This document shows, piece by piece, positions 19,363-43,597 of a stretch of 64,000 nucleotides of DNA. Both the position numbers and the translations under genes were made by a program. The stretch spans positions 1 to 64,000 of the forward strand of contig NZ_JARXVM010000025.1 in NCBI RefSeq assembly GCF_029892285.1. Reading direction: 5' to 3'. Within the stretch, counting starts at the first letter, position 1. Every line of letters begins with the position of its first letter. The notes beneath the pieces are model-generated. The model had not been told where the DNA came from. It saw only the letters and a program-made list of their open reading frames with translations, and made no database searches. Source of the stretch: Rhizobium sp. SG_E_25_P2. GTDB lineage: Bacteria; Pseudomonadota; Alphaproteobacteria; Rhizobiales; Rhizobiaceae.

Positions 19363-19364
19363 CT

Positions 19365-22190: not shown

Positions 22191-22257
22191 GGGCTTGTTG
22201 CAAACTTTCGGCAGAGTCAGAATGGCCCCTATTTCGCCGGCTTTATGCTTTGTTGAA
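22191..22257 (+). mobile_element. Probable end of an IS6-family element (relic)
   Basis: GGGCTTGTTGCAAACTTTC at 22191-22209 resembles the terminal repeat of IS6-family elements such as IS6100 (GGCTCTGTTGCAAA...). The relic ends where an acetoacetyl-CoA synthetase reading frame is cut off, about 22257, so it marks the junction between the metal-transport module and the catabolic island. No transposase is left. The 21980-22190 stretch beside it holds nothing I recognise. Confidence 0.4.
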
Positions 22258-22870
22258 GCTTTCCGCCATACCAATAGGCATCGCAGGTTAAGAAGAGCCT
22301 CGGTTCGATCTGGCCGAAGCGGTCGACGACTTCCTGGACTCCGAAGTCGGGCGAACACGATGCCCAAACGGCTCCGATCGAACTGGCCGCAAGCATGCAC
22401 GCGACTGTTTCCGGCATATTCGGCAACATGGCCGCGACCCGGTCGCTGGGAGCGATCCCCATGGCGAGGAACGCCTGCTGCAATCTTGAGACCTCTTCCC
22501 TCAACCGATCCCAGCTCCATCGGTAGGCGACCTTGTCCTCTCCTTGGAAGATGATCGCGTCTTCGGGCCCGATGCAGGACAAGAGGTTGCGGGCAAAGTT
22601 CAGCCGCGCGTCTGGGAAAAAGCGCGCACGGAGGATGTCCGACCCGTCGACAGGGGGCCTGTCTCCCGGAGCTCCCTTGACCTGGCAAAAATCCCATACG
22701 CCGCGCCAGAAATCGGAAGGTTCGTCTACAGACCACTTGTGCAGGCTCGCGTGGTCGGGAAGTTCGATCCGGAAAGAATAGGCGCACAACCAGCTGAAGG
22801 CGCTCATTGCGCTGCTTCCCGCGCGTTCCGGAGACGGGGACCATAGAGGCGCGGTTAGCGTTAGCGCCAT
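22229..22870 (-). pseudogene. Acetoacetyl-CoA synthetase, 5' third only
   Basis: 213 codons of an enzyme normally about 650 residues long. The N-terminus APLWSPSPERAGSSAMSAFS, the middle block RWSWDRLREEVSRLQQAFLA and the stretch ASCSPDFGVQEVVDRFGQIE are typical. The frame matches up to DAYWYGGK and then runs into foreign sequence with a stop. The AMP-binding active-site loop lies in the missing part, so it cannot work. It is the last gene of the catabolic operon. In intact form it would have activated acetoacetate, the expected by-product of the BKACE enzyme encoded at 31259-32125. Confidence 0.88.
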
Positions 22871-22892
22871 GAAATCATCCTATGGACTGTCA

Positions 22893-23705
22893 CTAGGCGG
22901 CATTCTTGCCTGCGATTTCAGAGATCGCGCGCCGGGCCATCACCCGCACGAGGTTCTCCCGGTACGCCCGGGAACCGTTGCGGTCCTCGAAGAAGTCAAA
23001 CGACGACAGGTCGACCCGGTCGGCCGTTTCGGCACTGAAGTCCTCTTCAAGCAGAGCCTCGAGTTCGGTGAGCCGAAACGCGCCTTCCGATCCGGCCCCC
23101 GTCACAGCCACCCGTACTGAAGAACCCGTTCGGCAGATAAACACTCCGGCCAGAGCATATCCGGATGCCGGATGGGGGAACTTCGCATAAGCCGCCTGTT
23201 CGGGGGTCTCGAATTCGAAGGACGTGATGAGCTCGTGCTCTTCGAGCGCGGTTTCGAAGATGCCGAGGAAGAAATCCTCCGCCGCCATCTCGCGCTTGTC
23301 GGTACGTATCGTCGCGCCCAGAGCCAGGATGGCGGCCGGATAGTCCGCAGCCGGATCGTTGTTGGCGACTGACCCGCCGATCGTGCCGCGATTGCGGACG
23401 TGACGATCGCCGATCTTGCCAGCCAGCCGTCCAAGGGCAGGGCACAAGTTTCCGACCGTCGAGTCACGTGCGACGGCGGCGTGGGTGGCTGCCGCTCCGA
23501 TCGTGACCGTGCGGTCTTTGCTCGAGATTTCCGCGATGCCAGGAAGAGCGGTGAAATCGATTAGGTCCGTCGGTGCGATCAGGCCGAGTTTCATCGACGG
23601 CAGCAGCGTCATGCCGCCAGCGAGAAATTTCGGATCGGTCGCCCCCGCAAGCGTCGACTGGATGCTGTCGATTGCGGTCGGCCTATGAAGGTTGAAGGGT
23701 AACAT
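22893..23705 (-). CDS. Molybdenum hydroxylase FAD subunit (CoxM-type)
   Basis: 270 residues, the medium subunit of the xanthine oxidase/CO dehydrogenase family. FAD-binding blocks are LAGGMTLLPSMKLGL near residue 31 and RNRGTIGGSVANNDPAADYP near 105. The C-terminal domain is complete. It passes electrons from the 2Fe-2S subunit to the acceptor. Its gene lies 9 bp after coxS-type gene, in the order large, CoxG, small, medium on the minus strand. Confidence 0.92.
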   Translation of the reverse strand: MLPFNLHRPTAIDSIQSTLAGATDPKFLAGGMTLLPSMKLGLIAPTDLIDFTALPGIAEISSKDRTVTIGAAATHAAVARDSTVGNLCPALGRLAGKIGDRHVRNRGTIGGSVANNDPAADYPAAILALGATIRTDKREMAAEDFFLGIFETALEEHELITSFEFETPEQAAYAKFPHPASGYALAGVFICRTGSSVRVAVTGAGSEGAFRLTELEALLEEDFSAETADRVDLSSFDFFEDRNGSRAYRENLVRVMARRAISEIAGKNAA

Positions 23706-23714
23706 TCGCCGCTC

Positions 23715-24206
23715 CTATGCCAGTTTTGCGATGGTTGACGCGGAGTACTTGTCCGCAGCGTCGAGGATTGCGGCCACGATGTTCTGATATCCCGTGCACC
23801 GACACAGATTGCCCTTGAGCTCCTGCCGAACGGTATCTTCGTCGAGAGGACGATCTGCCTTCTCGATAATGTCGATCGCCGTCAGGATAAGGCCGGGCGT
23901 GCAATAGCCGCATTGAAGGGCATGGTGCCGATGAAACGCCTCCTGGACGGGATGAAGCCTGTCGTCGTCGGCCACGCCTTCGACTGTCGTGATCGAACAC
24001 CCGTGCGCGTGGGCCGCGAGGAAAGTGCAGGACTTCACTGTATCGCCATTGACGTTCACCACGCATGCGCCGCATTGCGTCGTGTCGCATCCGACATGGG
24101 TCCCCGTCAGGCCGAGGTCCTCGCGAAGGAAGCTCACGAGGAGACGGTGGTCTTCGACGTTCTTCGTCACTTTCCTGCCGTTGACGACGGCTTCAACTCT
24201 GGACAT
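23715..24206 (-). CDS. Molybdenum hydroxylase 2Fe-2S subunit (CoxS-type)
   Basis: 163 residues with both iron-sulfur clusters. The plant-type ferredoxin cluster uses GCDTTQCGACVVNVNG plus the later Cys of VKSC. The second cluster uses CGYCTPGLI and LCRCTGYQNI. This is the small subunit joining the molybdopterin large subunit to the FAD subunit. All eight Cys are present. Confidence 0.95.
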   Translation of the reverse strand: MSRVEAVVNGRKVTKNVEDHRLLVSFLREDLGLTGTHVGCDTTQCGACVVNVNGDTVKSCTFLAAHAHGCSITTVEGVADDDRLHPVQEAFHRHHALQCGYCTPGLILTAIDIIEKADRPLDEDTVRQELKGNLCRCTGYQNIVAAILDAADKYSASTIAKLA

Positions 24207-24229
24207 TGGGTTCCTCCCTTGGGTGACGC

Positions 24230-24670
24230 TCAGGCGTTCCTGGCAATTTCGGCGATGCGCTCGAAGAACTGGCCGGACAGTTTCTTGGACGTGGACTCGA
24301 TCAACCTGCTGCCGAGCTGAGCCAGCTTGCCGCCGATGGCGGCGTCGACCGCGTAATGGATGGTCGTGCCGCCTTGCGTTTCTTCCAGGCGCACATTCGC
24401 TCCACCCTTTGCGAAGCCAGCGATGCCGCCGCTACCTTCGCCGGAAATGCGATAGCTCTCGGGGGCGATGATATCCTGCAGCTGAACCCGGCCGTTGAAC
24501 TTCGCCTTCACCGGGCCGATCGCTATCGCAACGGTCGCGGAATATCCGTCGTCAACCGCTTCGAGGGACTGGCATCCGGGGATCGCCTCACGAAGCACGT
24601 CGGGATCGTTTATCAACGCCCACACCGTCGGCCTTGGTTTATCGACGAAAAAGCTTCCTTCGAGATTCAT
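24230..24670 (-). CDS. CoxG-family SRPBCC protein
   Basis: 146 residues beginning MNLEGSFFVDKPRPTVWALI, the CoxG/SRPBCC start, followed by DPDVLREAIPGCQSLEAVDD. It has a lipid-binding-like helix-grip fold. CoxG proteins are encoded with molybdenum hydroxylases and are thought to help assemble the enzyme or attach it to the membrane. Here it lies between the large- and small-subunit genes, so it is part of the same enzyme module. The long C-terminal membrane anchor of some CoxG proteins is absent. Confidence 0.87.
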   Translation of the reverse strand: MNLEGSFFVDKPRPTVWALINDPDVLREAIPGCQSLEAVDDGYSATVAIAIGPVKAKFNGRVQLQDIIAPESYRISGEGSGGIAGFAKGGANVRLEETQGGTTIHYAVDAAIGGKLAQLGSRLIESTSKKLSGQFFERIAEIARNA

Positions 24671-24683
24671 GATCTTATCCTAT

Positions 24684-27014
24684 TCAATGCGAGTGTTGGC
24701 GCGCGGCATGGAGCGCGTCCCAGAGTTTGCCCGGAGTGACGGGCATATCGATATCCAGGACTCCGGCTGGCCGCACGGCGTCGAGGACGGCGTTGACGAT
24801 GGCGGCCGGGGTTCCGATCGTGCCGGATTCACCGATGCCCTTCACGCCCAGAGGATTGCTCAGGCTCGGGATTTCGATGAGTTTCGATCGGATGGTTGGC
24901 ATATGCTCGGCGCGAGGCAGGCAGTAGTCCATGAAAGACCCGCTGATCAGCTGGCCGTCGTCGTCGTAGACGACTTCCTCGCAGAGAGCCTGGCCAAGAC
25001 CCTGGGCGCATCCGCCGTGAATCTGGCCTTCGCAGATCTTCGGGTTTAGCGCCTTGCCGACATCGTCGACCGAATAGAACCGGTCAATGGTGACGACGCC
25101 CGTATCCGGATCAACCTCTAACTCGACGACCTGACAGCCATTGGGAAAGTTCGGTTGCGCGCCGGGTTTCCCCGCGGACGTGCCCTCGCCATAGAGGCCG
25201 AGAGAAAACCTCATCACCGGACCAGCAGGAAGGTAAAAGAACTTCGCGACATTCTGGATGGGCATGCTCTCGTTGGAGTTACGGACCTTGAAGAGGCCGT
25301 CCTCGAAGAATACGTCCGCTTCGTCGGCCTTGAGCAACAGCGCGGCCATCTTCGACGCTTTGCCGATCACGTCGTCAACAGCGCGTTTCAGGGCGGTGCC
25401 GCCGAGCATGGAGCTGCGTGCCGCGAAAGTACCTCGTCCTATGAGCACCTTGTCCGTGTCGCCTTGGACGAACCGGATGTCCTTTTGATCGATGGACAGC
25501 CAGTCGGACACCATCTGAGTGAAAACGGTGGCGTGACCTTGGCCATGCGAATGCGTCCCGGCCAGGATGGTCAGCGTGCCCGAAGGGTCGAAGCGCACTT
25601 CCATCCGCTCGTTCATGACCCCCGCGATCTCGATATACGACGTGATCGAACGACCTCTCAGCCGACCTCTCTTACGGCTTTCCGCCTGTCGGGTCTCGTA
25701 TCCTTCCCAGTCCGAGAGCTGGACGCATTCGTCGGCAAGTCGTTCGAACTCACCGCTGTCGTAGGTCAATCCGGCGGGATTGGAATAGGGCATCTGGTCT
25801 GGTTTGACGTAGTTCCGGCGTCGGAATTCCAGCGGATCCATTCCGAGCTCGTACGCGGCTTCGTCCATCAAACGTTCGATCGCGTATGCCGCCTCAGGCC
25901 GTCCCGCTCCGCGATAGACCGACATCGGGCAGATGTTGGTAAAGACGGCCCGTGTTTGAAGATCGACCGTCGGCACGTCGTAGGTGCCCGGAATAAGCTG
26001 CATCGAGAAGAATAGAGGAGGCGTGGCCGTGCCCCAGAAATAGGCTCCGAGATTGTGGAAGCCGCGGGCGCGGATACCTAGGATTTTCCCCTCCGCGCTG
26101 AGCGCCATGTCCGCGTAGACGATCTGGCCGCGGCCCTGGGTGTCGGTTTGCATTGACTCCGAGCGCGTCGCAATCCATTTCACCGGTCGACGGACCCTTT
26201 TCGAAGCCCAAAGGACGATGGCGTCCTCCGGATGGACGTGTGCCTTGAGACCGAAACCGCCGCCGACGTCCGGAGAGATCACCCGCAGCGTCGACTCGGG
26301 AATTTTCAGGATCACCGATGCAAGTACACGCCGGAAACCGTGCGGGTCCTGGGAGCTGGTGTGGAGAGTGAAGGTGTCCGTTCCGGCATCGTAGTCGCCG
26401 AGGCATCCCCTGGGTTCCAAGGATGCTGGCGTAACCCGGCCACTGGCCAGTCGACGGGAGACGATGAGGCTTGCGCCGTCAAAGGCAGCGGAAGTCTTTG
26501 CCTCGTCGCCGAACTTGAGATGAACCGAAAGATTTCCGGTCGGATTTTCATCCCAGACAACCGGAGCGCCCTCTGCCAGGGCCGCTTCGGCGTCGACGAT
26601 CGCGGGAAGGGGAGCGTAGTCGACGTAGACCTGGTCGGCAGCGGCCTTGGCCTCGTCAACCGTCTCGGCGATGACCACGGCGACCCGCTCTCCCACGCAG
26701 CGTACGCGGTCCGCTACGAGGATCGGCCTCAGCGTTGCGAAGCCCTTGGGGCCGCCCCACACTTCCGGCATGAAGAACGGCGGTACGGAACCGAGATCGT
26801 CTGTGGCGACATCCGCTCCCGTAAGCACGGCGATAACGCCGGGCATTTCCGACGCCGCGGAGATGTCTATCGAAACGATATCGGCGTGCGCGTGTGGAGA
26901 CAGCACCAACGCGGCGTGACATTGACGCTGAAGCGAGAAATCGTCGACATATCTCCCTTCTCCAGTCAAGAAGCGGCGGTCCTCGATCCGTAATGCGGGC
27001 TTGCCTATGGTCAT
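24684..27014 (-). CDS. Molybdenum hydroxylase large subunit (CoxL/xanthine dehydrogenase family)
   Basis: 776 residues, full length. It starts MTIGKPALRIEDRRFLTGEG behind a GGAGG site; longer readings run into the hydrolase gene. Molybdopterin contacts include GGGFGLKAHVHPED near residue 250 and SVYRGAGRPEAAYAIERLMD near 346. The catalytic Glu lies in KGIGESGTIGTP near 724. The active-site loop YRGAGR is that of form II and other hydroxylases, not the AYXCSFR of true CO dehydrogenase, so an organic ring or aldehyde is the substrate. It hydroxylates with water-derived oxygen and needs molybdopterin cytosine dinucleotide, not encoded here. Confidence 0.92.
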   Translation of the reverse strand: MTIGKPALRIEDRRFLTGEGRYVDDFSLQRQCHAALVLSPHAHADIVSIDISAASEMPGVIAVLTGADVATDDLGSVPPFFMPEVWGGPKGFATLRPILVADRVRCVGERVAVVIAETVDEAKAAADQVYVDYAPLPAIVDAEAALAEGAPVVWDENPTGNLSVHLKFGDEAKTSAAFDGASLIVSRRLASGRVTPASLEPRGCLGDYDAGTDTFTLHTSSQDPHGFRRVLASVILKIPESTLRVISPDVGGGFGLKAHVHPEDAIVLWASKRVRRPVKWIATRSESMQTDTQGRGQIVYADMALSAEGKILGIRARGFHNLGAYFWGTATPPLFFSMQLIPGTYDVPTVDLQTRAVFTNICPMSVYRGAGRPEAAYAIERLMDEAAYELGMDPLEFRRRNYVKPDQMPYSNPAGLTYDSGEFERLADECVQLSDWEGYETRQAESRKRGRLRGRSITSYIEIAGVMNERMEVRFDPSGTLTILAGTHSHGQGHATVFTQMVSDWLSIDQKDIRFVQGDTDKVLIGRGTFAARSSMLGGTALKRAVDDVIGKASKMAALLLKADEADVFFEDGLFKVRNSNESMPIQNVAKFFYLPAGPVMRFSLGLYGEGTSAGKPGAQPNFPNGCQVVELEVDPDTGVVTIDRFYSVDDVGKALNPKICEGQIHGGCAQGLGQALCEEVVYDDDGQLISGSFMDYCLPRAEHMPTIRSKLIEIPSLSNPLGVKGIGESGTIGTPAAIVNAVLDAVRPAGVLDIDMPVTPGKLWDALHAARQHSH

Positions 27015-27040
27015 TGGTTCCTCCAGTCCTCCTGAGACGA

Positions 27041-27817
27041 TCAGCCGTTCGCCAATGCCGCGGCGAGCAGATCGTTGACTTGCGGTGCTGCTTCGAACAG
27101 CGGGATGTGAGCTGCACCTTTGATGGTCTTGACTTCGACGCCGCCCAGTACCGCCGCCAGCGCTTCTGAGGCTGCCCGCGGCGTGGCTTCGTCGAACTCG
27201 CCGAGCGCGATGGTTACGGGCATGCCGAGCCTGGAAGCGGTCGCCCTGCAGTCCGCGTCCGCCAGCGCGTCGCATCCCGCAGCATAGCCTTCGTCAGGTG
27301 TCCTCGACAGCATCGTCGCGAGGGCCCGACCCTCAACCGTTTTTCGGTAGCCGGGTGTCATCCACCGCGAAAGCACCCCTTCGGCAATGCTGGCGAGACC
27401 GTCCGCGCGGCACTTCTTGGCTCGGTCACGCCACATCGGCGGGTTCAGGCTGGCGAGGTTCGAATCCAAAAGCGTGAGCGTTTTGACGCGAGCGGGTTGT
27501 TTTCCCGCGAAAGCCTGCGCGACGAGGCCCCCGATCGAGATACCGCAAAGGTGATAGCTCTCCAGCCCAAGAGATGTGACGAGGGCATCGACGTCATCCG
27601 CAAGCGACTGGATCGAAACAGCCGTCTTCGAGACCTCGCTCAGGCCGTGCCCTCTGAGATCGGGGCAGACGATGTAGAAATCGCGACGCAACGCCTCGAC
27701 CTGCCTCGCCCAAACGCTGGCGGATGTCCCCAAAGAGTGGAGCAGCACCAAGGCTGGCTTCGCCTGGTCTCCGTGGGTTTCGGCGTGCAGCACGTGACCG
27801 TCAAATTCGATGAACAT
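27041..27817 (-). CDS. Alpha/beta hydrolase, 3-oxoadipate enol-lactonase/deformylase-like
   Basis: 258 residues, typical of PcaD, NicD and similar enzymes. The catalytic triad is visible: nucleophile Ser in CGISIGGLVAQ near residue 98, Asp in GEFDEATP near 205 and His in KGAAHIPLFE near 235. The oxyanion strand is LLHSLGTSASVW near 25. It follows the flavin monooxygenase gene by 1 bp. In the pathway it probably opens or deformylates the ring-cleavage product. Family members act on lactones, esters or amides and cannot be told apart by eye. Confidence 0.85.
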   Translation of the reverse strand: MFIEFDGHVLHAETHGDQAKPALVLLHSLGTSASVWARQVEALRRDFYIVCPDLRGHGLSEVSKTAVSIQSLADDVDALVTSLGLESYHLCGISIGGLVAQAFAGKQPARVKTLTLLDSNLASLNPPMWRDRAKKCRADGLASIAEGVLSRWMTPGYRKTVEGRALATMLSRTPDEGYAAGCDALADADCRATASRLGMPVTIALGEFDEATPRAASEALAAVLGGVEVKTIKGAAHIPLFEAAPQVNDLLAAALANG

Positions 27818-27818
27818 A

Positions 27819-28943
27819 TCAGAACTCCTGATTGAGGTGGACGAGAGCCTTCTCGACCACGGCGGTTTGGGCTTCAGGAGCCGCGCGCTCGCGTTCCAGA
27901 CGGCTGATCTCCAGGGAGGAGTCCACGACGAGCTTGCAGCGCCCATAGCGGCGGTCCATGAAGGACTGGAGCGCCGCGGGAATGTCGCCCGCCTTGAAGA
28001 CCTCCTGGGCAAGGACGATACCGTCTTCGATGCCCATGCCCGCACCCGACGCAAGCTGTGGCGTGGTAGCGTGGGCCGCGTCGCCGATCAGAACGACGTT
28101 GCCATTGCTCCAGGCGCCGTCCACGAATACCGTTTCCAGAGGCCTGCAGATGATGTTCGATGTCGCCGATAGCCCGTCGCGGACTTCGGCCAGGACGCCG
28201 CCGTAGCCCTCCATGAGCTCGTGCAGGACCAGGTGCTGTCCGGCTTCCTCACGACGCAGCGGTACGGGCTGGGCCTCAAGGTAGAACATGTACATCTGGT
28301 CTTTCGAGACGGGGTTGAGTCCGACCTTGGCAAGGCCGCCTAGAAAGAAGGTCCGGCGTTCAATCGACGGGTGCCGATCGGTCATCAGGCGCCAGCAGAG
28401 CTGTCCTGCGTACCGCGGCGCGGGCGTCTGCGGAAACAACCGCGTCCTTGTGTCGGAGTAAATCCCGTCGGCACCGACTATCAGATCGTATTCCGCGACC
28501 GACCCGTTCTCGAACCGGACCCTGCTTTTGCTCGCTCCGGCTTCGATGTCTTCGACGCCGACTCCAAGGATTGGAGAGACGCCGAGCGTTTGCAGGCGAC
28601 GCTGCATGATCCGATGAAGGACGGGACGCAGAACTCCCCCGGCGCTCGGTATTCCCCCGAGCGCATCGTTCTTGGTGTCGACGGTGAAGAGGTGCTTTCC
28701 CTGTGCCGAGCAGATGTCGATTCCGTCGGCGGCGTAGCCCTCTTCGAGCACGTCGTCGAGTATCCCGAGTCGTCCCATTGCACGGAGGGTCGGCCCGGTG
28801 ATCGTGATGCCCGCGCCATAGACCTTCCATTGCGGATCGCGCTCGCAGAGGTCGACGGCTATTCCGCCGTTGCGGAGGGCTATCGCCGCCGCCATACCCG
28901 CGATCCCGCCTCCGACGATCAGGACCTTGATGTCTCTAAGCAT
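27819..28943 (-). CDS. FAD-dependent aromatic-ring monooxygenase
   Basis: 374 residues of the class A flavoprotein hydroxylase group (salicylate or 6-hydroxynicotinate monooxygenase type). The GGGIAG dinucleotide-binding loop is at residues 11-16, the VGADGIYSDTR motif near 156 and the GDAAHATTPQLASGAGMGIE motif near 288. It hydroxylates a phenolic or hydroxypyridine ring, often with decarboxylation, using NAD(P)H and O2. It lies 0 bp after ligB, so its product is likely the diol cleaved by LigAB. Confidence 0.88.
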   Translation of the reverse strand: MLRDIKVLIVGGGIAGMAAAIALRNGGIAVDLCERDPQWKVYGAGITITGPTLRAMGRLGILDDVLEEGYAADGIDICSAQGKHLFTVDTKNDALGGIPSAGGVLRPVLHRIMQRRLQTLGVSPILGVGVEDIEAGASKSRVRFENGSVAEYDLIVGADGIYSDTRTRLFPQTPAPRYAGQLCWRLMTDRHPSIERRTFFLGGLAKVGLNPVSKDQMYMFYLEAQPVPLRREEAGQHLVLHELMEGYGGVLAEVRDGLSATSNIICRPLETVFVDGAWSNGNVVLIGDAAHATTPQLASGAGMGIEDGIVLAQEVFKAGDIPAALQSFMDRRYGRCKLVVDSSLEISRLERERAAPEAQTAVVEKALVHLNQEF

Positions 28944-29789
28944 TTAGGCCGCCTTCTCGTCTTCGCCAACGAAGTGACCGATCCCGATCCCGGTGTACCA
29001 GTCGTTGACGGCCTTGTAGTAGGCGCGCTTGAATTGCATGCCTGAGACTTCCGCAGCTCCCATCGCCGCCATCCACATACGGATTTCCTCGGCGCCGTTC
29101 CCTGCGGTGTGAACGAAGTCGGTCGCGTAGGCGATGACCTCGTCGGGGTCTCCGGCCTCGAGACGCTGGAGGAGGTTCTCGTCGAATTCGCGATTGACCA
29201 TCCCCATCCGCGGCGTCGCGATGTCATGGCTGATGCCGCCTGTCGCCAGGATGGCGACGCGTTCGACACCTTCGTATTCGCGGATTGCCTTGCCGAGGAA
29301 GCGGCCGAAATTGTAGCAGCGGCGCATCGTCGGCATCGGCGGCTGGACGCAATTGAAGAGCACCGGGACAATTGGCAGATCGGGCTCCAGCCCCGCCAGT
29401 TCTAGCGGGGTCAGCGAGCCGTGGTCGAGGACCATGTCCATGGAAAAGGAAGGATCGAACTCGGCCTGTAGCGCGGCTTGCAAAAGGTAAGACCCGAATG
29501 CCTGGTCACCCTGGAAGGTCCTGCGCTTTGCCTTGAGCCAGTGCTCGATCGGGCTATCGTAACTTTCGGCGGTTCCGATGCAGAGGGCGGGAAAGTTGTC
29601 GAGAAAGAAATTGTGCAGGTGGTCGTTCGACAGGACGATCAGGGCGTCGGGCTTACCGGATTCGAAATCCCTGCCCATCGCTTCATACGCACCGAAGATT
29701 TCATCCTTCAGCTCGACCGGGATGCGGTCGGGGAAGTTGAGCATCACAGGCGTGTGGCTCGCAGTATAGATTCCGGTTATTTCAGCCAT
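28944..29789 (-). CDS. Class III extradiol dioxygenase catalytic subunit (LigB-like)
   Basis: 281 residues, normal for protocatechuate 4,5-dioxygenase beta chain. Iron ligands of LigB are recognisable: His in YTASHTPVM near residue 12 and His in LSNDHLHNFF near 55-60, with the later VLDHGSLTPLEL and ATGGISHDIATPRMG blocks. It cleaves a catechol-like ring next to a hydroxyl with Fe(II) and O2. It overlaps ligA by 13 bp. Candidate substrates include protocatechuate-type diols, gallate or dihydroxypyridines; sequence alone does not decide. Confidence 0.92.
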   Translation of the reverse strand: MAEITGIYTASHTPVMLNFPDRIPVELKDEIFGAYEAMGRDFESGKPDALIVLSNDHLHNFFLDNFPALCIGTAESYDSPIEHWLKAKRRTFQGDQAFGSYLLQAALQAEFDPSFSMDMVLDHGSLTPLELAGLEPDLPIVPVLFNCVQPPMPTMRRCYNFGRFLGKAIREYEGVERVAILATGGISHDIATPRMGMVNREFDENLLQRLEAGDPDEVIAYATDFVHTAGNGAEEIRMWMAAMGAAEVSGMQFKRAYYKAVNDWYTGIGIGHFVGEDEKAA

Positions 29790-30088
29790 TTGTCGTCTCC
29801 TTCTTTCATGAGGCTACGAAGCGCAGCCAAGGACACGTCCTCGGGGATTCTTACACCGATGCAGTGCGCGCGCAGGAGGTAGGGATTGACGCCGGCCTCG
29901 TAGAGTCCGGCAACGTCGTTGCCGCTGATCTTCGCCTTCATTTCGGGCGTAAGCTTGTAGCGTGACAGATACTGATCCTTGTCCTGGTTGTAGGCTGCCA
30001 GGTCGTCGGGCTTGTGATGCAGTTCGTAGAGGACCTTGTCCAAAAGGTAGGCCTCCGTCGTCGGCATCATCAGTCGCCAGTTGCTCAT
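29777..30088 (-). CDS. Class III extradiol dioxygenase small subunit (LigA-like)
   Basis: 103 residues, all alpha-helical by composition, with the LigA block LDKVLYELHHKPDDLAAYNQ near residue 16 and LYEAGVNPYLLRAHCIGVRI near 61. LigA caps the active site of LigB. It precedes and overlaps ligB, so the two are translated as a pair. Confidence 0.92.
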   Translation of the reverse strand: MSNWRLMMPTTEAYLLDKVLYELHHKPDDLAAYNQDKDQYLSRYKLTPEMKAKISGNDVAGLYEAGVNPYLLRAHCIGVRIPEDVSLAALRSLMKEGDDKWLK

Positions 30089-30104
30089 CTCGTTTCCTTT
30101 CGTG

Positions 30105-31241: not shown

Positions 31242-31258
31242 TCAGTTGCACTCCGAAT

Positions 31259-32125: not shown

Positions 32126-32880
32126 GAAGAAAATCCGCCGTCGACCATGATGGCCGATCCGTTCGTGTAACGGCTGCGGTCGGAAGCCAGGAAGCACACC
32201 GCCTCGGCCACTTCCTCGGGCATGGCGTGGCGGCCCAGAGGTATCTGCTCGTCGAAGAACGCTCCCGCGTCGCGTCCGAGAACCGCAGACATCGTCTTCT
32301 CGGCCGTGCGCATGAATTCGTTATCGACAGGGCCAGGATTGACCGTATTCACACGAATGCCGCGATGGCCGAGCTCTTTAGACAACCCGCGCATGAGACC
32401 CGTCAGGGCATGCTTGGCCATGACATAGGAGCAGTTTCCCGGAACGCCCTTGAGGCCGACGATGCTGGATGTGATGACGATACTTCCGCCGTCGCGCATG
32501 TGGGGCACGGCATATTTGCAAGTGTAGAACCCGCCGTAGACGTGCGTCTTGATGATCTTGTCGAAAAGGTCCTCGGGATAATGCTCGATCGGACTGAGCG
32601 GCCCGTCATTGCCCGCATTGCTGAACAACAGGTCGATCGGACCAAAGGCCTCGACGGTCTGCTGGACAAAACTGCGGACCTGCTCGGGGTCGGTGATGTC
32701 GGCCACGCAGGATCGGGTCGTTGCCGGATCGAACTCGCCGACGACCTCGGCGAGCCGGGCGGCGTTGAAGTCTACGAGCATCACTTTGGCGCCTTCGCTG
32801 GCCAAAAGCTTGGCTGTAGCCAGGCCCAGGCTCCCGGCCGCGCCCGTGATGATGCAGGTTTTGTTGTCTACAAGTCCCAT
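32122..32880 (-). CDS. SDR-family dehydrogenase
   Basis: 252 residues of a classical short-chain dehydrogenase. The cofactor loop is TGAAGSLGLATAK near residue 12, followed by SNAGNDGP near 90, the catalytic Ser in ITSSIVGLKG near 140 and YVMAK near 155. An acidic residue after the second strand (VDFNAARLAE) favours NAD over NADP. It lies 9 bp after the livM-type gene. It probably oxidises a hydroxyl to the keto acid used by the BKACE enzyme. Confidence 0.9.
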   Translation of the reverse strand: MGLVDNKTCIITGAAGSLGLATAKLLASEGAKVMLVDFNAARLAEVVGEFDPATTRSCVADITDPEQVRSFVQQTVEAFGPIDLLFSNAGNDGPLSPIEHYPEDLFDKIIKTHVYGGFYTCKYAVPHMRDGGSIVITSSIVGLKGVPGNCSYVMAKHALTGLMRGLSKELGHRGIRVNTVNPGPVDNEFMRTAEKTMSAVLGRDAGAFFDEQIPLGRHAMPEEVAEAVCFLASDRSRYTNGSAIMVDGGFSS

Positions 32881-32889
32881 TATAAGCTC

Positions 32890-33882
32890 CTACTGGGCAT
32901 TCTTCTCGGCGATCAGGCGCTTAGGCTCAGGCTGCCCAATCGGAATTTTCGAAAGCAAACTGTCATGGAATGTTGGCCACAGGCCCTTGGGAGCCAGAAG
33001 TATCGTGGCGATCGCGATGAGGCCCATCGCCGTCAGGTGCCAGCTTCCTGACAATCCAAAGCCGACCATCATCAGCTGCCTGAGCCCGTAGTAGAGAAGG
33101 GTTCCGACCACGGGGCCTCCGATGGTCCCGATCCCGCCGACGATTACGATGAAGATCATCGTCACCACCCAGTTCACGTCGAACCCGCTGGAGACCGTCA
33201 CGAACATCGCGCCGGAGTAGCTGATCGCGCCCGCCAGGCCGCAGACGGCTCCCGTCGCGACCAATGCAAGGAGACGATTGCGCCTGACATCGACCCCGAT
33301 GCTCACCGCGGCGAGTTCGTTGTCTCGGACACCCTTCATCGCCAGACCGGTCGGCGACCTCATCAGAAGACCCATGCCGAAGACCGTGGCGATCGCGAGG
33401 CCCGAACTCAGCCAGAAGATCGCCTTGAGAAAGACGTCGAAGTCGAGGTCCCTGGTCGCTTCGAGCGTGAGGCCCGTGACGTTCCCGAGGTTCGGCGCGA
33501 TGAAAACCAGCATGGCGACGACCTCGGCGATGACCCAGGTGCTGATTGAGAAGTAGGCGTCGCGAAGCCGGAGCAGAAGAAACGAGGTGACGACGGCGAG
33601 GGCGATTCCGGCGACCGGTCCGGCGAACAACGCGGAGTAGGGCGAGATGCCGAGTGCGTTCGAAGCGTAGATCGCAGCATATGCGCCAAGCCCGACATAT
33701 GCCTGGAGACCCAGCGAGACGAGCCCCACATACCCGGCCATCAGGTTCCAGGCGCTTGCCATGGCCAACATGAGACAGGCTTCGCCGACGACGGCGGTGA
33801 TGCCTTCGTCCGCAAGAAGTGGCATCACGGCAGCCGCGCAGACGGTGAAGACGAATACCGCGATTTCGGAAAATCGTGTCAT
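32890..33882 (-). CDS. Branched-chain amino acid-type ABC permease (LivM-like)
   Basis: 330 residues, about nine membrane segments, with the LivM block NLMAGYVGLVSLGLQAYVGL near residue 46 and the coupling region MKGVRDNELAAVSIGVDVRR near 177. Part of the Liv-type importer encoded with the catabolic enzymes. It overlaps the livH-type gene by 4 bp. Such transporters often import aromatic acids and other carboxylates besides amino acids. Confidence 0.92.
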   Translation of the reverse strand: MTRFSEIAVFVFTVCAAAVMPLLADEGITAVVGEACLMLAMASAWNLMAGYVGLVSLGLQAYVGLGAYAAIYASNALGISPYSALFAGPVAGIALAVVTSFLLLRLRDAYFSISTWVIAEVVAMLVFIAPNLGNVTGLTLEATRDLDFDVFLKAIFWLSSGLAIATVFGMGLLMRSPTGLAMKGVRDNELAAVSIGVDVRRNRLLALVATGAVCGLAGAISYSGAMFVTVSSGFDVNWVVTMIFIVIVGGIGTIGGPVVGTLLYYGLRQLMMVGFGLSGSWHLTAMGLIAIATILLAPKGLWPTFHDSLLSKIPIGQPEPKRLIAEKNAQ

Positions 33883-34745
33883 GCCCGTGCTCCAAACAGG
33901 CCGTTCGGCCTCACCAGCATGAATGCGAGGAAAAGCAGATGCGCATAGAGGAAACCAGCGTTCGGGTTGAGTTTGAGCCCGACGAGCTGGGCGATCCCGA
34001 GAGCGATCCCGCCCAGCATCGCGCCCCAGAACGAGCCAAGTCCGCCCAGCACCACGACTTCGAACGAGATCAGCAGACGTTCGACACCGGAGAACGGCGT
34101 AAAGGTCGTCCTCATGGCAAGCAGGACACCTGCGACACCCGCGAGGGCAAACGAAACACCCGTTACGATGCTGTAGACGCGGTCCGGCGTAATCCCCATG
34201 ACCCTGGCGATCTCGGGGTTATCGGCGGTAGCCCGTACCATCCGCCCGAACTTCGTCTTCTTGAGAATGATTTCAAGAGCGAGGAAGAGACCAATCGCTA
34301 TCAAAAGGGTGACCACCGGAAGGACCCCGATCTTCATTCCGAAGAGTTCGAAACTCTGCTGGGCAAAGTCCCCCTGTTTGATCATCCGGGGGCTCACTCC
34401 GAACCCTTCCGCCATCATGTTGCGCGCGACGACGGAGATGCCGAATGTCAGCAGCAGCGGGGCGACCATATTGTTGAGCTTTAGCGCCCGGTTGATGAGA
34501 GCCGCCTGGAGAGCGTAGCCCAACAGGAACGAAACGGCGGTGACCGGGACGATCAGCAGGAGAGGATGGAGGAACGGCAGAAGGGCGGACGCGCCCAGCC
34601 CGATGAACGCCGCAAGTGCGATGAACTCGCCGTGTGCGATGTTGACGATGCGCGTAACGCCGAAGACGAGTGCAAGACCCACGCCGAACAGGCCGTAAAG
34701 ACCGCCGAGAAGCGAGCCGTTTATAATAGTCGAAACCCAGGTCAA
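33879..34745 (-). CDS. Branched-chain amino acid-type ABC permease (LivH-like)
   Basis: 288 residues. The N-terminal GLYGLFGVGLALVFGVTRIV with NIAHGEFI is the LivH signature, and RATADNPEIARVMGITPDRV near residue 180 is the coupling loop. It overlaps livF- and livM-type genes by 4 bp on each side. Confidence 0.93.
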   Translation of the reverse strand: MTWVSTIINGSLLGGLYGLFGVGLALVFGVTRIVNIAHGEFIALAAFIGLGASALLPFLHPLLLIVPVTAVSFLLGYALQAALINRALKLNNMVAPLLLTFGISVVARNMMAEGFGVSPRMIKQGDFAQQSFELFGMKIGVLPVVTLLIAIGLFLALEIILKKTKFGRMVRATADNPEIARVMGITPDRVYSIVTGVSFALAGVAGVLLAMRTTFTPFSGVERLLISFEVVVLGGLGSFWGAMLGGIALGIAQLVGLKLNPNAGFLYAHLLFLAFMLVRPNGLFGARA

Positions 34746-35455
34746 TGCGTCGTCTCCCCCAATCCGAAATAGGCGCGTGTCAACTGCTCGTCGGTCAGGT
34801 CGGCGCTATCGCCATGAAGCGTTACCCGCCCTTCGAGCAGGCAATAGAGCCGTCGCGCAAACGATCGTGCGCGGCGTACATCCTGTTCGACCAGGACAAT
34901 GGAAGTCCCTTGCCGGGATATCGCTTCAAAGGATCGGTAGATCGCCTCGACGGCGATCGGGGCGAGACCGAGCGAAATCTCGTCGCAGAGCAAGACCTTG
35001 GGGTTCGACATGAGTGCCCGACCGATGGCCACCAAACCTTGTTGGCCGCCTGAAAGGGTGTTGGGCCGCTGCGACCGCCGCTCCTCGAGCAATGGAAACA
35101 GCTCGAACACCGTTTTGAGATTCCAGTGTCCCGGTCGGCCCGAAAATGCACCGATCTTGAGATTCTCCTCTACGTCGAGCGATGGGAAGAGAGCGCGACC
35201 CTCGGGAACGAGCGCAATCCCGGAACGTGCGATCTGCTCGGCCTTTCGACGGCCGATGTCGTTACCTTCGTAGATCACGCGGCCGTCAATCCTTGCGACT
35301 AGGCCAGCGATGGCGCGCAGCAGGGTGGACTTTCCAGCCCCGTTCGCGCCGACGATAGCTACGCATTCGCCAGCTTCGAGCGACATGGACAGGCCGTGCA
35401 AAGCCCGTAGGTCGCCATAAAAGGCGTGCAGCTGTTCGACTTCAAGCAGCTTCAT
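34742..35455 (-). CDS. Branched-chain amino acid-type ABC ATPase (LivF-like)
   Basis: 237 residues, the LivF size. Walker A GANGAGKST near residue 36, signature LSGGQQGLVAIGRAL near 134 (the Q after GGQQ is Gly-Leu rather than the usual Met-Leu) and Walker B VLLCDEISLGLAP near 154. In LivF the Glu of this block is the catalytic base. It overlaps the livG-type gene by 14 bp. Confidence 0.92.
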   Translation of the reverse strand: MKLLEVEQLHAFYGDLRALHGLSMSLEAGECVAIVGANGAGKSTLLRAIAGLVARIDGRVIYEGNDIGRRKAEQIARSGIALVPEGRALFPSLDVEENLKIGAFSGRPGHWNLKTVFELFPLLEERRSQRPNTLSGGQQGLVAIGRALMSNPKVLLCDEISLGLAPIAVEAIYRSFEAISRQGTSIVLVEQDVRRARSFARRLYCLLEGRVTLHGDSADLTDEQLTRAYFGLGETTH

Positions 35456-36188
35456 CGGCAGGAATTCCCATGTAGATTTCGCGGACGAGCGCGCTGTTCA
35501 TGACTTCGTCGGGCGCGCCCTCCATGACCTTCCGCCCGAAGTTGAGAACCATGACGCGGTCCGCGACGGCCTTGAGAGCGTGGGGGATGTGCTCGATCCA
35601 GATGATCGAGTGCATGGTCTTGAGTTCCTGGATCAGCGCGATGAGAGACTCCGTCTCGGCATCGGTCAGTCCCCCAGCTATCTCGTCGAGCAGCAGCAGC
35701 CGGGCGTTCGACGCGAGGGCTTTCGCCAGTTCGAGACGCTTTCGGTCGAGAAGCCGCAGCTTTCCCGCTGGAATATCGGCGGCGCCGGATAGACCAGTCC
35801 GCCTCAGGGCATTGTGTGCCAGCTCCCTTGCCCGCGCTCCCCGCAGCCGAGCTGCGGCATATGAAGCAAGAAGAACATTTTCGTAAACTGACAAGCTCTC
35901 GAAACACTGCGGTATCTGGAAGGCCCGGACGACGCCCAGCGAGGGGCGTCGATGAGGAGGCTGCGCGCAAAGGTCCACGCCATCGAGCATCAGGGAGCCG
36001 CTATCCTGGCGCACCACCCCGGTGAGAAGATGGAAAAGCGTGCTCTTTCCGGCCCCGTTCGGCCCGATCACGCCCAGGCAGCCTCTGTCGGGAAGCTCAA
36101 GATCGATGTCGTCAGCAACGACGATCGATCCGTATCGCTTCTTGAGACCGGATATGCGCAGGAGCGGAGCGCTCTTGGCCATTTCCAT
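35442..36188 (-). CDS. Branched-chain amino acid-type ABC ATPase (LivG-like)
   Basis: 248 residues. Walker A GPNGAGKST near residue 40 and Walker B LLLLDEIAGGLTDAETE near 163 are clear. The usual LSYG signature before Walker B is weak here (KLRLLDRKRLELAKALA). This LLDRKRLELA form is found in some LivG proteins of aromatic-acid importers. The start at 36188 is chosen to avoid a non-homologous extension that would overlap the binding-protein gene. Confidence 0.88.
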   Translation of the reverse strand: MEMAKSAPLLRISGLKKRYGSIVVADDIDLELPDRGCLGVIGPNGAGKSTLFHLLTGVVRQDSGSLMLDGVDLCAQPPHRRPSLGVVRAFQIPQCFESLSVYENVLLASYAAARLRGARARELAHNALRRTGLSGAADIPAGKLRLLDRKRLELAKALASNARLLLLDEIAGGLTDAETESLIALIQELKTMHSIIWIEHIPHALKAVADRVMVLNFGRKVMEGAPDEVMNSALVREIYMGIPADEAA

Positions 36189-36192
36189 TCTC

Positions 36193-37509
36193 TCAGCTCC
36201 GAATCTGCGAGAGCGGAACAAGCTCGGCTGTCGGGGTCACGCCGCTCGTCCCGGCGTGCACGACGACGAGTTCGAACGGGAATTTGCCGTCCTTGGTCTT
36301 TCGCCATTGGCCGCCGACCAGCTTCTGGATCGCGACGTTCTTGACCGGCGAACCTGCGAAATCCAAGGGGCCGACAACGGTGTCCACCTTGAGAGAGGCG
36401 ATGGAGTCGCGGATAGACTTGTTGTCCTTGGGATCGGCCGCGCCCTTGAGCGCCGCAAAGCCGACTTCCCAAAGCGAATGGGAGATGCCCAGCGGCTGGG
36501 TCCACTGCGTTCCAGTATTCTGCTCGTATTCGTCCGCCAACTGCCGCGCCGTCTGGCCGGTCATCGAGGATGTGTAGGGCAGGGCGGGATTCCAGAGGAC
36601 TTCAGTCGACATGCCGTCGCCGAGGTCCCCGAGGCCTTCAAGGGCGCTTGGAAACAGGAACGGTCCTGCGACTGTGACTGCCTCTGGCTGGAATCCGTTT
36701 TGTGCGGCCTGGTTCCAGAAAGTGGCAAAGTGGTTCGGATAGCAACTGCCGGAAAGAATGCCGACTTCGCCGCCGACCAGAGAGGCTATCTGGTTCGTGA
36801 AGTCATCGTTGCTAAGCTGGAAGAAGCCCGTGTTGACTTCGGTGTAACCGTTCTTCTGCAGGAGAACCGGAAGCCCGTGCGCGGGGTCCGCGAAGCCTCG
36901 CGCGGCCGCAGAATCCATGTAGATCGTTCCAACTTTCTTGTTGGTCTTGAGGCTGTTCCACATGTCGGTATAGAGCTTGAAAACGTCTCCTGCGCCGATG
37001 CAGTAGTGGAACGTGAACGGGAAACCCTTATCGGGGGCGCCGTGACGGCCGAACACCCATGCCTCCCACGGCGATAAGGTGGAGATCATGGGAACACCGC
37101 GGGCGTCCGCAAGTTCGGCGGCCGCGCCGGAGGAATTGTCGCCGTCGTCCGTGAGGATCAGATCGCACTTCTCGCGAAGGATCAGGTCGCGTGCTGCCAC
37201 GGCGGTTTGATTGGGATCGGACTGGTTATCCTTGACGATGATTTCGACCGGATAATTGGTGCCCTCGATATCAATGCCATTTGCGACTGTCTTTTGAACG
37301 CGCTCAACAATCCAGGTGTCTACGGCTCCGAAATCCGATCTCAGTCCCGAAATGCTCGCGAGCAATCCGATCTTGAGAGACCGGGTTTCCGCACGGGCTA
37401 CAAGCGGGGTGGGGAACTGCGCCAGCGCGCCTGCGGCGACGGCGCCGCCCATGCGGGCGAGTGCGCCTCGCCGAGTGAGCTGTGCGGTGAATCCTTCGCG
37501 TTCCGTCAT
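36193..37509 (-). CDS. Branched-chain amino acid-type ABC substrate-binding protein
   Basis: 438 residues. A twin-arginine signal peptide is seen in LTRRGALARMGGAVAAGALA. The mature part is a type I periplasmic-binding fold (SLKIGLLASISGLRSDFGAV, then DLILTDDGDNSSGAAAELAD). It is the first gene of the 17-gene minus-strand operon, downstream of the TetR-type operator at 37673. Proteins of this class in catabolic clusters usually bind an aromatic acid or amide. The ligand is not known. Confidence 0.9.
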   Translation of the reverse strand: MTEREGFTAQLTRRGALARMGGAVAAGALAQFPTPLVARAETRSLKIGLLASISGLRSDFGAVDTWIVERVQKTVANGIDIEGTNYPVEIIVKDNQSDPNQTAVAARDLILREKCDLILTDDGDNSSGAAAELADARGVPMISTLSPWEAWVFGRHGAPDKGFPFTFHYCIGAGDVFKLYTDMWNSLKTNKKVGTIYMDSAAARGFADPAHGLPVLLQKNGYTEVNTGFFQLSNDDFTNQIASLVGGEVGILSGSCYPNHFATFWNQAAQNGFQPEAVTVAGPFLFPSALEGLGDLGDGMSTEVLWNPALPYTSSMTGQTARQLADEYEQNTGTQWTQPLGISHSLWEVGFAALKGAADPKDNKSIRDSIASLKVDTVVGPLDFAGSPVKNVAIQKLVGGQWRKTKDGKFPFELVVVHAGTSGVTPTAELVPLSQIRS

Positions 37510-37672
37510 GATTTTGATCCTCCCAGACCATAGTTGATGGCGCTCGATCAGGCGCGTCGATCCGGCAATGGAAAACCCTTCACGCGGACGACGGTCCGCG
37601 CGGCGAATTTCTGTCAAATCGAGCTTCTGACGCCTCCTGCTTCGTGCCCGTCGACCTCCTCAAGCCGAAAAT

Positions 37673-37718
37673 AAATGAGCACGCTCATTTTTCTGCTGCA
37701 GCAAGAACCAATTGTCAA
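37673..37718 (-). promoter_or_regulatory. Catabolic operon promoter with TetR-type operator
   Basis: On the minus strand a TTGACA (37718-37713) is followed at the -10/start distance by the 18-bp near-perfect palindrome AAATGAGCACGCTCATTT (37673-37690). Its core TGAGCACGCTCA matches the second palindrome at 38251-38262 in 9 of 12 positions. The placement over the -10 region fits a repressor operator. The -10 hexamer itself is not convincing. A separate 12-bp palindrome TGATCATGATCA lies at 37722-37733. Confidence 0.6.
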
Positions 37719-37762
37719 TACTGATCATGATCAATTTTTTTGAAGGGATGGAATTGGTGCAA

Positions 37763-38085
37763 GGATCACATTTCAACATCTTGCATCTCTGCGGCCGGGA
37801 TCGGACATAGGTAGATTGATCCCGGATGCCGCACAAACATAACGCCTCCCGCCGCCATCACATCGGTAAAGTGAAGTTCAAGGTGACGAACTGGGCGGAG
37901 TATGAGGCGGGCCTTCGGCGCCGTGTCAGCAAGAACCTTTGGATAACTCCGGATGCGCTGGCGGGCTGGGCTGCCCCACGTTGCAGGACGTATGGTGGCC
38001 AGCCCCATCTATACGGGCGCAACCAAATAATCGGCCCATCAAAGACCAAATTCCGCACATCTGCTGATTCCCGCACCGACGCCCT
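37763..38085 (+). repeat. IS5-family relic A
   Basis: From 37826 the sequence encodes MPHKHNASRRHHIGKVKFKV followed by TNWAEYEAGLRRR, an N-terminal fragment of an IS5-family transposase with frame damage after about 60 codons. It shares the leader and N-terminus with relics B (39021-39463, opposite strand) and C (49745-49999). Its 3' side, TCGGCCCATCAAAGACC and on (38031-38067), is found again in relic B. No catalytic residues remain. The relic lies between the two TetR-type operators, separating the regulator from its operon. Confidence 0.75.
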
Positions 38086-38247
38086 GACGAGGCTTATTGA
38101 ACGGCGGGGGAAACCGTTTCGGACAGCTGCGCGCGCAGATAGCCTCCAACTCCACCCCATGCAACACGGTCGCTGGAATCCAGCCGAAAAGGACAACGAC
38201 AAAGCGGAAACGCGTGGACATTTTCACCGGCCACCGACGACGATTCC

Positions 38248-38265
38248 TTTTGAACGCGTTCAAAA
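38248..38265 (+). promoter_or_regulatory. Second TetR-type operator, upstream of the regulator gene
   Basis: TTTTGAACGCGTTCAAAA is a perfect 18-bp palindrome 62-80 bp before the TetR start. Its core TGAACGCGTTCA and the core at the catabolic operon (TGAGCACGCTCA) give a shared consensus TGARCRCGYTCA, so the same protein probably binds both, with autoregulation here. Confidence 0.6.
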
Positions 38266-38326
38266 ACCTTGATAGGAAACCAGCTTTGCATCTATTTGTG
38301 TACTGTCTGATGCATTGGAGGTCGTC

Positions 38327-38977
38327 TTGGACGCAGCACTCGAAAAGGCGCGGAAGATCGGAACCCGCGAGCGGAACAAGAACGACAAGCTCAGGAGGAT
38401 TAAGTCATCTGCTCTCGAGCTGTTCGTCTCGAAGGGCTTCGACGACACCACGACCCGAGAGATCGCGAGCGCGGCGGGTGTGGGTCTTGGCACCGTGTTC
38501 GTCTACGCCGAGACCAAGCGCGACCTGCTCTTTCTCATCGTCAACGATGACCTCGAGGATTGCGTCGACCGCTCCGTACAGGCGTGCTCCAGCAACCAAT
38601 CGCTTCTCGGCAACGTTATGTCGATCCTTCGCATCCACTACGAGTATTTCTCGAGACTTCCAGTACTTTCCAGGCAGGCGTTGAGGGAAATGTACTTTTA
38701 TCAATCGGGCAAGCAAGCCGAACGCTTCATGCGAACTCGTGAGCGACTGAGCGCATTGCTCGAGCGGCTGATCGAGGAAGCGAGCGCGGCCCGCGTCATT
38801 CATTCCGACGAATCGACGCAAGCGATCGCGCAAACCATCTTCGCGATCTACCAGGTAGACCTGCGTCGTTGGCTGTCGACGGACGACCTGAACCTCGATT
38901 CCGCGATGGACCACCTCAGCCATCAGCTCAAGGTCCTCATCAAGGGTCTGTCGCCTCGGCCCGAAGCTCTGGCCTGA
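38327..38977 (+). CDS. TetR-family transcriptional regulator
   Basis: About 216 residues. The N-terminal helix-turn-helix covers SSALELFVSKGFDDTTTREI with recognition helix AGVGLGTVFVYAETKRDLLF; the rest is a helical ligand-binding domain. The TTG at 38327 with GGAGG five bases upstream is preferred; a TTG at 38315 is possible. It is divergent from the catabolic operon and flanked by matching palindromes, so it most likely represses the operon until an aromatic intermediate binds. It is also bracketed by IS5 relics A and B. Confidence 0.92.
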   Translation: MDAALEKARKIGTRERNKNDKLRRIKSSALELFVSKGFDDTTTREIASAAGVGLGTVFVYAETKRDLLFLIVNDDLEDCVDRSVQACSSNQSLLGNVMSILRIHYEYFSRLPVLSRQALREMYFYQSGKQAERFMRTRERLSALLERLIEEASAARVIHSDESTQAIAQTIFAIYQVDLRRWLSTDDLNLDSAMDHLSHQLKVLIKGLSPRPEALA

Positions 38978-39020
38978 GCGAGTTCACGCACAGCATCTTC
39001 AAAAGCCATTCCCTCCGGCG

Positions 39021-39463: not shown

Positions 39464-39498
39464 CTAAGCCCGACCCAACCATTGCCCGGATCAGGCAG

Positions 39499-40311: not shown

Positions 40312-40318
40312 GGTCACC

Positions 40319-43520: not shown

Positions 43521-43597
43521 GGTAGTCTCCCGGTTAGAGATGAAGTTTGTGTGATGTTCCCGCCGGTGTCCCCGGTCTTGCTGTTGTGATCTGAATG

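Follow-up and report, generated by a model that had tools for sequence, protein, structure and literature searches.

A putative TetR-controlled meta-cleavage operon with a Yg1-type hydrolase on an apparently acquired island in Rhizobium

The stretch of DNA analyzed here, hereafter the window, comprises 64,000 nucleotides of Rhizobium sp. SG_E_25_P2 (contig NZ_JARXVM010000025.1, positions 1 to 64,000) and carries a run of 17 tightly packed genes, all on the minus strand between 22229 and 37509, with a gene for a TetR-family regulator adjoining (Table 1). Pfam and NCBIfam assignments give the transcription order LivK, LivG, LivF, LivH, LivM, SDR, beta-keto acid cleavage enzyme (BKACE), hydrolase, LigA, LigB, group A flavin monooxygenase (FMO), PcaD-like hydrolase, CoxL, CoxG, CoxS, CoxM and a fragment of acetoacetyl-CoA synthetase (AACS). 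A first-pass annotation of this DNA had named the same 17 genes in one minus-strand run, and all of them are present as such; its span of 22191-38977 has to be narrowed to the run proper, with TetR (38315-38977) lying on the opposite strand. Intergenic distances in the run range from -76 to +29 bp, and both extremes depend on the choice of start codon: the -76 overlap reflects a GTG start of BKACE, whose open frame reaches 32197, and becomes -4 with the likelier internal ATG at 32125, while the +29 gap becomes 26 with the CoxL ATG at 27014. With both ATG starts checked, the largest overlap is -29 and the largest gap 26.

Table 1 Features of the 17-gene run and its right edge, in order of transcription after the flanking elements.
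Feature	Position	Strand	Evidence or comment
IS5-family remnant, right edge of island	39017..39466		Family name from annotated matches
TetR-family regulator	38315..38977	+	TetR_N 1e-11; orientation inverted relative to R. tropici
IS5-family remnant	37814..38083		Inverted partial copy of the 39017..39466 remnant; family name from annotated matches
Palindrome TGAGCACGCTCA, candidate TetR operator	37676..37687		Between TetR and LivK
LivK-type periplasmic binding protein, first operon gene	36193..37509	-	Peripla_BP_6 8e-39; 87% identity in R. tropici; TTG start at 37617 also open
LivG ABC ATPase	35442..36221	-	ABC_tran 5e-21; 88% in R. tropici
LivF ABC ATPase	34742..35455	-	ABC_tran 3e-31
LivH permease	33879..34745	-	BPD_transp_2 2e-34
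LivM permease	32890..33882	-	BPD_transp_2 2e-31
SDR oxidoreductase	32122..32880	-	adh_short_C2 2e-61
BKACE	31259..32125	-	PF05853 208.8 bits, cut-off 24.8
C-C bond hydrolase (predicted), Yg1/DHPON-hydrolase/FrsA superfamily	30105..31241	-	Sequence and predicted fold
LigA-like small subunit	29777..30088	-	PF07746 1e-7, 32.2 bits, cut-off 25.3
LigB-type extradiol dioxygenase	28944..29789	-	PF02900 3e-41, 141.6 bits, cut-off 26.3
FMO	27819..28943	-	NF005313 404 bits, cut-off 372; FAD_binding_3
Alpha/beta hydrolase, PcaD-like	27041..27817	-	TIGR02427 222.8 bits, cut-off 255.85
Molybdenum hydroxylase large subunit, CoxL type (YRGAGR)	24684..27014	-	MoCoBD_1/2
CoxG-like protein	24230..24670	-	PF06240 8e-35
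CoxS, [2Fe-2S] subunit	23715..24206	-	Fer2_2 3e-31, Fer2
CoxM, FAD subunit	22893..23705	-	FAD_binding_5 7e-41
AACS remnant, about the first third	22229..22870	-	Aligned to the full R. tropici gene

What kind of enzyme is the hydrolase encoded between BKACE and LigA? Among proteins of solved structure it is closest to WdYg1 (1e-47) and Ayg1 (8e-41), followed by AbyA5, DHPON hydrolase (1.7e-11 over 148 residues) and FrsA. All 30 aligned sequences share Ser236, Asp331, Asp338 and His358, and comparison of an AlphaFold2 model (pLDDT 92.8) by Foldseek gives the best TM-scores, 0.89-0.90, with WdYg1 and Ayg1, as against 0.77-0.80 with DHPON hydrolase and 0.68-0.73 with AntI, also a polyketide-shortening enzyme. 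The alpha/beta-hydrolase fold and the aligned Ser, Asp and His place the protein in the Yg1/DHPON-hydrolase superfamily; however, DHPON hydrolase is rejected as its nearest relative by E-value and TM-score alike, and the label DHPON-hydrolase-like from the first-pass annotation gives way to the much closer fungal Yg1 enzymes. Yg1-type and related enzymes cleave C-C bonds of poly-oxo or acyl-phenol compounds. The fungal polyketide-shortening hydrolases WdYg1 and Ayg1 are alike to the window protein in fold and aligned catalytic residues and are its best match in both sequence and structure, but they serve melanin biosynthesis according to the titles of their structure entries, whereas the window protein is read as catabolic, namely as a predicted ring-fission-product hydrolase. 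Two points favor placing it after ring cleavage: the hydrolase gene is paired with dioxygenase genes, and a poly-oxo acid would arise by meta cleavage of a resorcinol-derived triol, just as HcdB forms 2,4-dihydroxy-6-oxonona-2,4-dienedioate in the accessible part of the report on it (PMC6222606).

The sole ring-cleavage dioxygenase family within the 17 genes is LigAB. LigB exceeds the PF02900 gathering score, and its His12, His57, His123, His188 and Glu235 align with active-site residues of DesB (alignment to 3wku), which places the protein among the class III extradiol dioxygenases. The PcaD-like protein is an alpha/beta hydrolase, but its identification as the 3-oxoadipate enol-lactonase PcaD is rejected because its score falls under the TIGR02427 equivalog cut-off. 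BKACE belongs to its family by the PF05853 gathering score, with none of its four NCBIfam matches at cut-off, and none of the best 25 of 232 NCBIfam models reached its cut-off with the SDR. The active-site loop of CoxL reads SVYRGAGR, without Cys; the loop of form I CO dehydrogenase is AYXCSFR. Form I aerobic CO dehydrogenase is ruled out by this loop together with a TIGR02416 score of 503 bits against a cut-off of 991, in agreement with the earlier suggestion that the YRGAGR loop points to an organic substrate and not to CO. Among solved structures CoxL matches a CO dehydrogenase best, followed by quinoline 2-oxidoreductase (1.5e-131) and 6-hydroxypseudooxynicotine dehydrogenase (8e-121), and nothing was confirmed in viral contigs scanned with CoxL.

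The conservation of this gene set was followed by using an alignment of seven hydrolases to scan genome contigs, and the best 80 of 109 confirmed loci were taken for neighbor counts. A neighbor was counted when a tblastn match covered over half of the query within a set distance, bounded by contig ends; this was preferred for the counts to clustering of open reading frames, which is disturbed by antisense frames. Near the hydrolase lie FMO in 62 loci, LigA in 56, LigB in 55 (within 3 kb) and the PcaD-like gene in 48, then BKACE in 19 (one at 27% identity), SDR in 11, CoxL in 10, an amidohydrolase in 8, a PnpD-like gene in 5, a Rieske protein in 4 and a CoA transferase A subunit in 3. Among the 55 loci with LigB, 54 have LigA, 51 FMO, 44 the PcaD-like gene, 18 BKACE and 10 CoxL, to which locus L059 adds CoxM at the locus end. 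Judged from these counts, the predicted core consists of the hydrolase, LigA, LigB, FMO and the second hydrolase, with the importer, the Cox genes and BKACE, which are present variably, resembling add-on modules; the transport genes differ between loci, being of Liv, MFS, TctC, DctM or NMT1 type. The distance matrices of the five core proteins correlate with one another at r 0.72-0.92 (49-69 loci), the top of 500 permutations per pair being 0.20.

The 25 loci without LigB comprise 12 with a VOC-type protein, 2 with LigA before a contig end and 11 with neither; four Pseudacidovorax loci without LigB or VOC carry the PcaD-like gene. All 12 VOC loci are actinobacterial records in which the VOC gene lies 29-215 bp away, 10 at 65-75% and 2 at 23% identity to the query, and two examples match catechol and HpaD dioxygenase models under cut-off. 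Since LigB occurs in 55 loci and VOC in 12, two unrelated dioxygenase types appear to be paired with one hydrolase, LigAB in alpha-, beta- and gammaproteobacterial records and VOC in Actinobacteria. A PnpD-type hydroquinone dioxygenase gene lies near the core in L025, L054, L056, L069, L072 and L103 (Novosphingobium, Pseudomonas, Curvibacter). A plasmid of Rhodococcus sp. USK13 (L027, 10516-14994) carries a related but different set, made up of an FrsA-like hydrolase (26%), a small protein, LigB (38%), a dihydrodipicolinate-synthase-family protein and an SDR.

All 17 genes recur in identical order, with TetR upstream, on plasmid c of Rhizobium tropici CIAT 899, where LigB is 94% and the hydrolase 88% identical (tblastn of plasmid records). 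There AACS is complete at 652 amino acids; the window copy, correctly recognized earlier as a fragment, has 213 amino acids corresponding to residues 6-206, and a second, full-length AACS that is 66% identical lies elsewhere in the source genome. Across eight congener genomes, three of them less than 85% complete, LigB has no match in seven and a 31% match in one, and the hydrolase has weak matches in seven, the best-scoring at 28% identity and 3e-20. The weak matches for the ring-cleavage and hydrolase genes, the IS5-family remnants at the right edge and the truncated AACS indicate that the 17-gene set is an acquired accessory island, as its description as a catabolic island had held. Window positions 39399-50029 are 98.2% identical to congener G004, and the match ends at 39399. 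On the left, 10000-22300 has short matches only, in three congeners (best 246 bp at 70%), and for this reason the accessory region seems to extend leftward. Liv and SDR genes were not matched in the clusters of R. rosettiformans and Allorhizobium pseudoryzae, nor were Liv, SDR or Cox genes in that of R. rhizoryzae; the R. rosettiformans cluster includes a 3-oxoacid CoA transferase pair and an MFS transporter.

Further features of the window touch the extent of the island. Peptide-type ABC transporter genes at 16740-20906, whose binding protein has about 31% identity to the best-scoring congener matches, would be accessory too. A tRNA-Met gene at 18-94, followed at 553-1176 by a frame with rve and HTH_21 (transposase type), is a possible left edge of a larger island. 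Another copy of the IS5-family sequence lies at 49740-49995, within the stretch common to congener G004.

The TetR gene sits between two inverted IS5-family remnants, with the palindromes staying on the operon side, and recombination between both copies likely inverted it. A weaker copy of the palindrome TGAGCACGCTCA (8 of 10 positions) lies 46 bp from it, and TGAGCNNGCTCA occurs once in the 64-kb window against 0.10 expected, 9 of 100 whole-window shuffles containing one. In hand-chosen TetR-to-operon intervals of 15 further loci and the window, every one of the 16 contains a site that agrees at 9 or all 10 positions; a perfect site is found in 6 of the 16, window included, and 12 of the 15 carry two such sites. 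When the 15 were shuffled by mononucleotide, 0-7 of 500 shuffles matched the observed score. The exact palindrome was found in none of ten of these 15 loci and in none of six further loci (L041, L042, L043, L048, L049, L084). Fourteen palindrome loci have no Liv genes in the operon; BKACE follows as the next matched gene in 12 of these and the hydrolase in the other 2. The conserved palindrome supports predicted TetR control of one operon.

How would these proteins act together? From the gene content, order, conservation and conserved catalytic residues, which are seen directly, we infer each reaction, the reaction order and the substrate. The Liv-type transporter would import a ring compound, and the molybdenum hydroxylase, as an optional entry step, would put a water-derived hydroxyl on a ring without it. 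FMO would then add a neighboring hydroxyl, LigAB would cleave the ring, and the Yg1-type hydrolase would cut the poly-oxo acid so formed at a C-C bond in a retro-Claisen reaction, with the second hydrolase opening a lactone or performing another hydrolytic cut. BKACE enzymes convert a beta-keto acid and acetyl-CoA to an acyl-CoA and acetoacetate, and the enzyme encoded here may do the same with a beta-keto acid left by these cuts. The acetoacetate would be activated by acetoacetyl-CoA synthetase, probably the genome's other copy as that of the window is a remnant; a CoA transferase would take this role in some other loci. Several loci hold genes for such an exit: the window and R. tropici carry AACS, the R. 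rosettiformans cluster and the neighborhoods of 3 of the 80 loci carry a 3-oxoacid CoA transferase, and BKACE accompanies 19 of the 80. We consider it fairly probable that the locus is a meta-cleavage operon under TetR control, situated on an acquired island and with steps as proposed, and the succession of hydroxylation, meta cleavage, hydrolysis and BKACE cleavage sketched in the first-pass annotation is plausible.

Several observations weigh against this scheme. AACS lies near none of the 80 genome loci, which leaves the window and R. tropici as its two occurrences, and in 37 of the 55 LigB loci a search of 10 kb showed no BKACE, so the acetoacetate exit is not universal. The CoA transferase models matched, TIGR02428 and TIGR02429, denote the broad subfamilies pcaJ_scoB and pcaI_scoA. 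FMO (51 of 55) and the PcaD-like gene (44 of 55) are not universal among LigB loci, and 13 of the 80 loci show no dioxygenase match by the tblastn test. The core distance correlations, calculated with no species control, in part reflect shared species descent; that of LigB with BKACE is weak (0.55; highest permuted value 0.49), and that of BKACE with CoxL is within chance (0.86 against 0.89, n=7). The hydrolase might act before ring cleavage, like DHPON hydrolase, and nothing turned up on substrate, induction or enzyme activity for any member.

Comparison with known systems sets this scheme in context. The Arthrobacter pAO1 nicotine pathway (KDH-DHPONH-DHPH) combines a molybdenum hydroxylase, a C-C hydrolase of the same superfamily and an FMO; its DHPONH is a distant relative of the window hydrolase, and to our knowledge the pathway has neither LigAB nor BKACE. 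The closest known cluster in architecture appears to be asd, for acetosyringone in Pseudomonas rhizophila AS1, which in the available portion of its report has the same order of hydrolase, ring-cleavage slot, FMO, hydrolase and transporter, with a VOC protein where the window, which has no VOC gene, has LigAB (PMC12911418). This likeness is one of architecture, by description and not by sequence; BKACE and Cox genes are absent from the five asd genes, and activity is shown for AsdA only, as far as that portion goes. The ifc (isoflavone) and fde (naringenin) clusters share an FMO, a dioxygenase and a DHPON-hydrolase-like protein for a plant phenolic, but have a glyoxalase-type dioxygenase and cupins, and the accessible text mentions neither BKACE nor Cox genes (PMC11069340); membership of the window operon in this group is rejected because a FdeC/IfcB-type glyoxalase dioxygenase is absent from the 17 genes. 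The hcdABC genes for 3-(2,4-dihydroxyphenyl)propionate likewise share an FMO, an extradiol dioxygenase and a hydrolase of a dihydroxy-oxo ring-fission product, but the dioxygenase is of type I, unlike LigAB, and BKACE is unmentioned in the part of the report at hand (PMC6222606).

Which ring compound would enter the pathway? We lean toward a resorcinol-type or acyl-phenol ring over a pyridine, and a carbocyclic phenolic is somewhat favored because most core loci have no CoxL nearby, Yg1 enzymes are the closest relatives of the hydrolase, and the clusters most similar in plan, asd, ifc and hcd, act on phenolics. The alternatives address the substrate or one module and are compatible with the general scheme, and the weights given to them need not sum to one. 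With an N-heteroaromatic substrate, as proposed in the first-pass annotation, the molybdenum hydroxylase would act beside the nitrogen of a pyridine or quinoline, the hydrolase would remove an acyl chain in the manner of DHPON hydrolase, FMO would yield a dihydroxypyridine and LigAB would open it. Such a substrate is consistent with quinoline 2-oxidoreductase and 6-hydroxypseudooxynicotine dehydrogenase as solved relatives of CoxL, the place of the hydrolase in the wider DHPON-hydrolase superfamily, pyridine hydroxylases among the FMO relatives, an Amidohydro_1 enzyme near 8 of the 80 loci, and PydA, annotated as the 3,4-dihydroxypyridine dioxygenase of the mimosine pathway and a LigB protein in the excerpt available of its description. 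However, a search of 9 kb around the 55 LigB loci left 45 without CoxL, among them those of close rhizobial relatives (one of the 45, L059, has CoxM at its end), and with a CO dehydrogenase as its top solved match the family gives no substrate. A dedicated amidase is missing from the five core families, although the alpha/beta hydrolase NicD can be a deformylase according to a partial source; the hydrolase is nearest to carbocyclic-polyketide Yg1 enzymes, and the clusters closest in plan act on plant phenolics. We regard an N-heteroaromatic substrate as possible but unlikely.

Another hypothesis is that the operon is the LigAB counterpart of the fde/ifc or asd clusters and degrades a root-derived plant phenolic, for which the shared asd gene order and the ifc combination of FMO, glyoxalase-type dioxygenase and DHPON-hydrolase-like protein argue. 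In R. rhizoryzae (L024, 5300-8854) a second FMO (39%), a glyoxalase-fold protein and a second FrsA-like hydrolase (27%) lie near the core in an fde/ifc-like set, and a GH106 rhamnosidase directly adjoins the core in Povalibacter uvarum (L055, 13044-16430). The latter is rejected as general proof of flavonoid glycosides, GH106 being found in only 5 of the 35 genomes searched (35 of the 80 loci). Moreover, the ring-cleavage proteins of fde, ifc and asd are glyoxalase/VOC types and not LigAB, and a close hydrolase occurs in 2 of 298 sampled genomes of the P. frederiksbergensis genus, both LigAB loci, AsdB being likened by description only. Disruption of the ifc hydrolase gene left daidzein degradation unaffected in the available part of that study (PMC11069340), and we hold this hypothesis to be conceivable though rather doubtful. 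It is quite improbable that the Cox genes have a separate function, as an aldehyde or purine oxidase, and merely share the operon: CoxL lies near only 10 of the 80 loci and its best NCBIfam score is for glyceraldehyde dehydrogenase (620.6 bits, cut-off 790), but it is found next to the core again in separate arrangements among Alpha- and Betaproteobacteria, and its distances follow the hydrolase distances (r 0.97, n=14; highest permuted value 0.52).

The preferred reading, a meta-cleavage operon for a resorcinol-type or acyl-phenol ring, draws on enzyme families that are each already known, and the set would be a variant of the meta-cleavage pathway. Searches of the open-access literature yielded no pathway with this gene set and no assigned substrate, in line with the earlier statement that no described pathway has exactly this set, and a characterized homologous cluster of known substrate was looked for and not found. 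No cluster of this kind turned up in the orcinol, mimosine and BKACE literature, and no cluster-related term was found in the accessible main text of an R. tropici apigenin/salt RNA-seq paper (PMC4782375).

The gene set looks built for importing a ring compound, opening the ring and feeding the pieces to central metabolism. We tentatively hypothesize, at slightly short of an even chance, that it represents a widespread, undescribed type of aromatic pathway, in which a Yg1-family hydrolase handles ring-fission products, its dioxygenase partner is interchangeable between LigAB and VOC, and in some lineages BKACE provides an exit to acyl-CoA and acetoacetate in place of a hydratase-aldolase route. 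If true, this would give relatives of the Yg1 hydrolases a bacterial role, tie BKACE to aromatic ring cleavage and provide a testable operon in the well-studied bean symbiont R. tropici CIAT 899.

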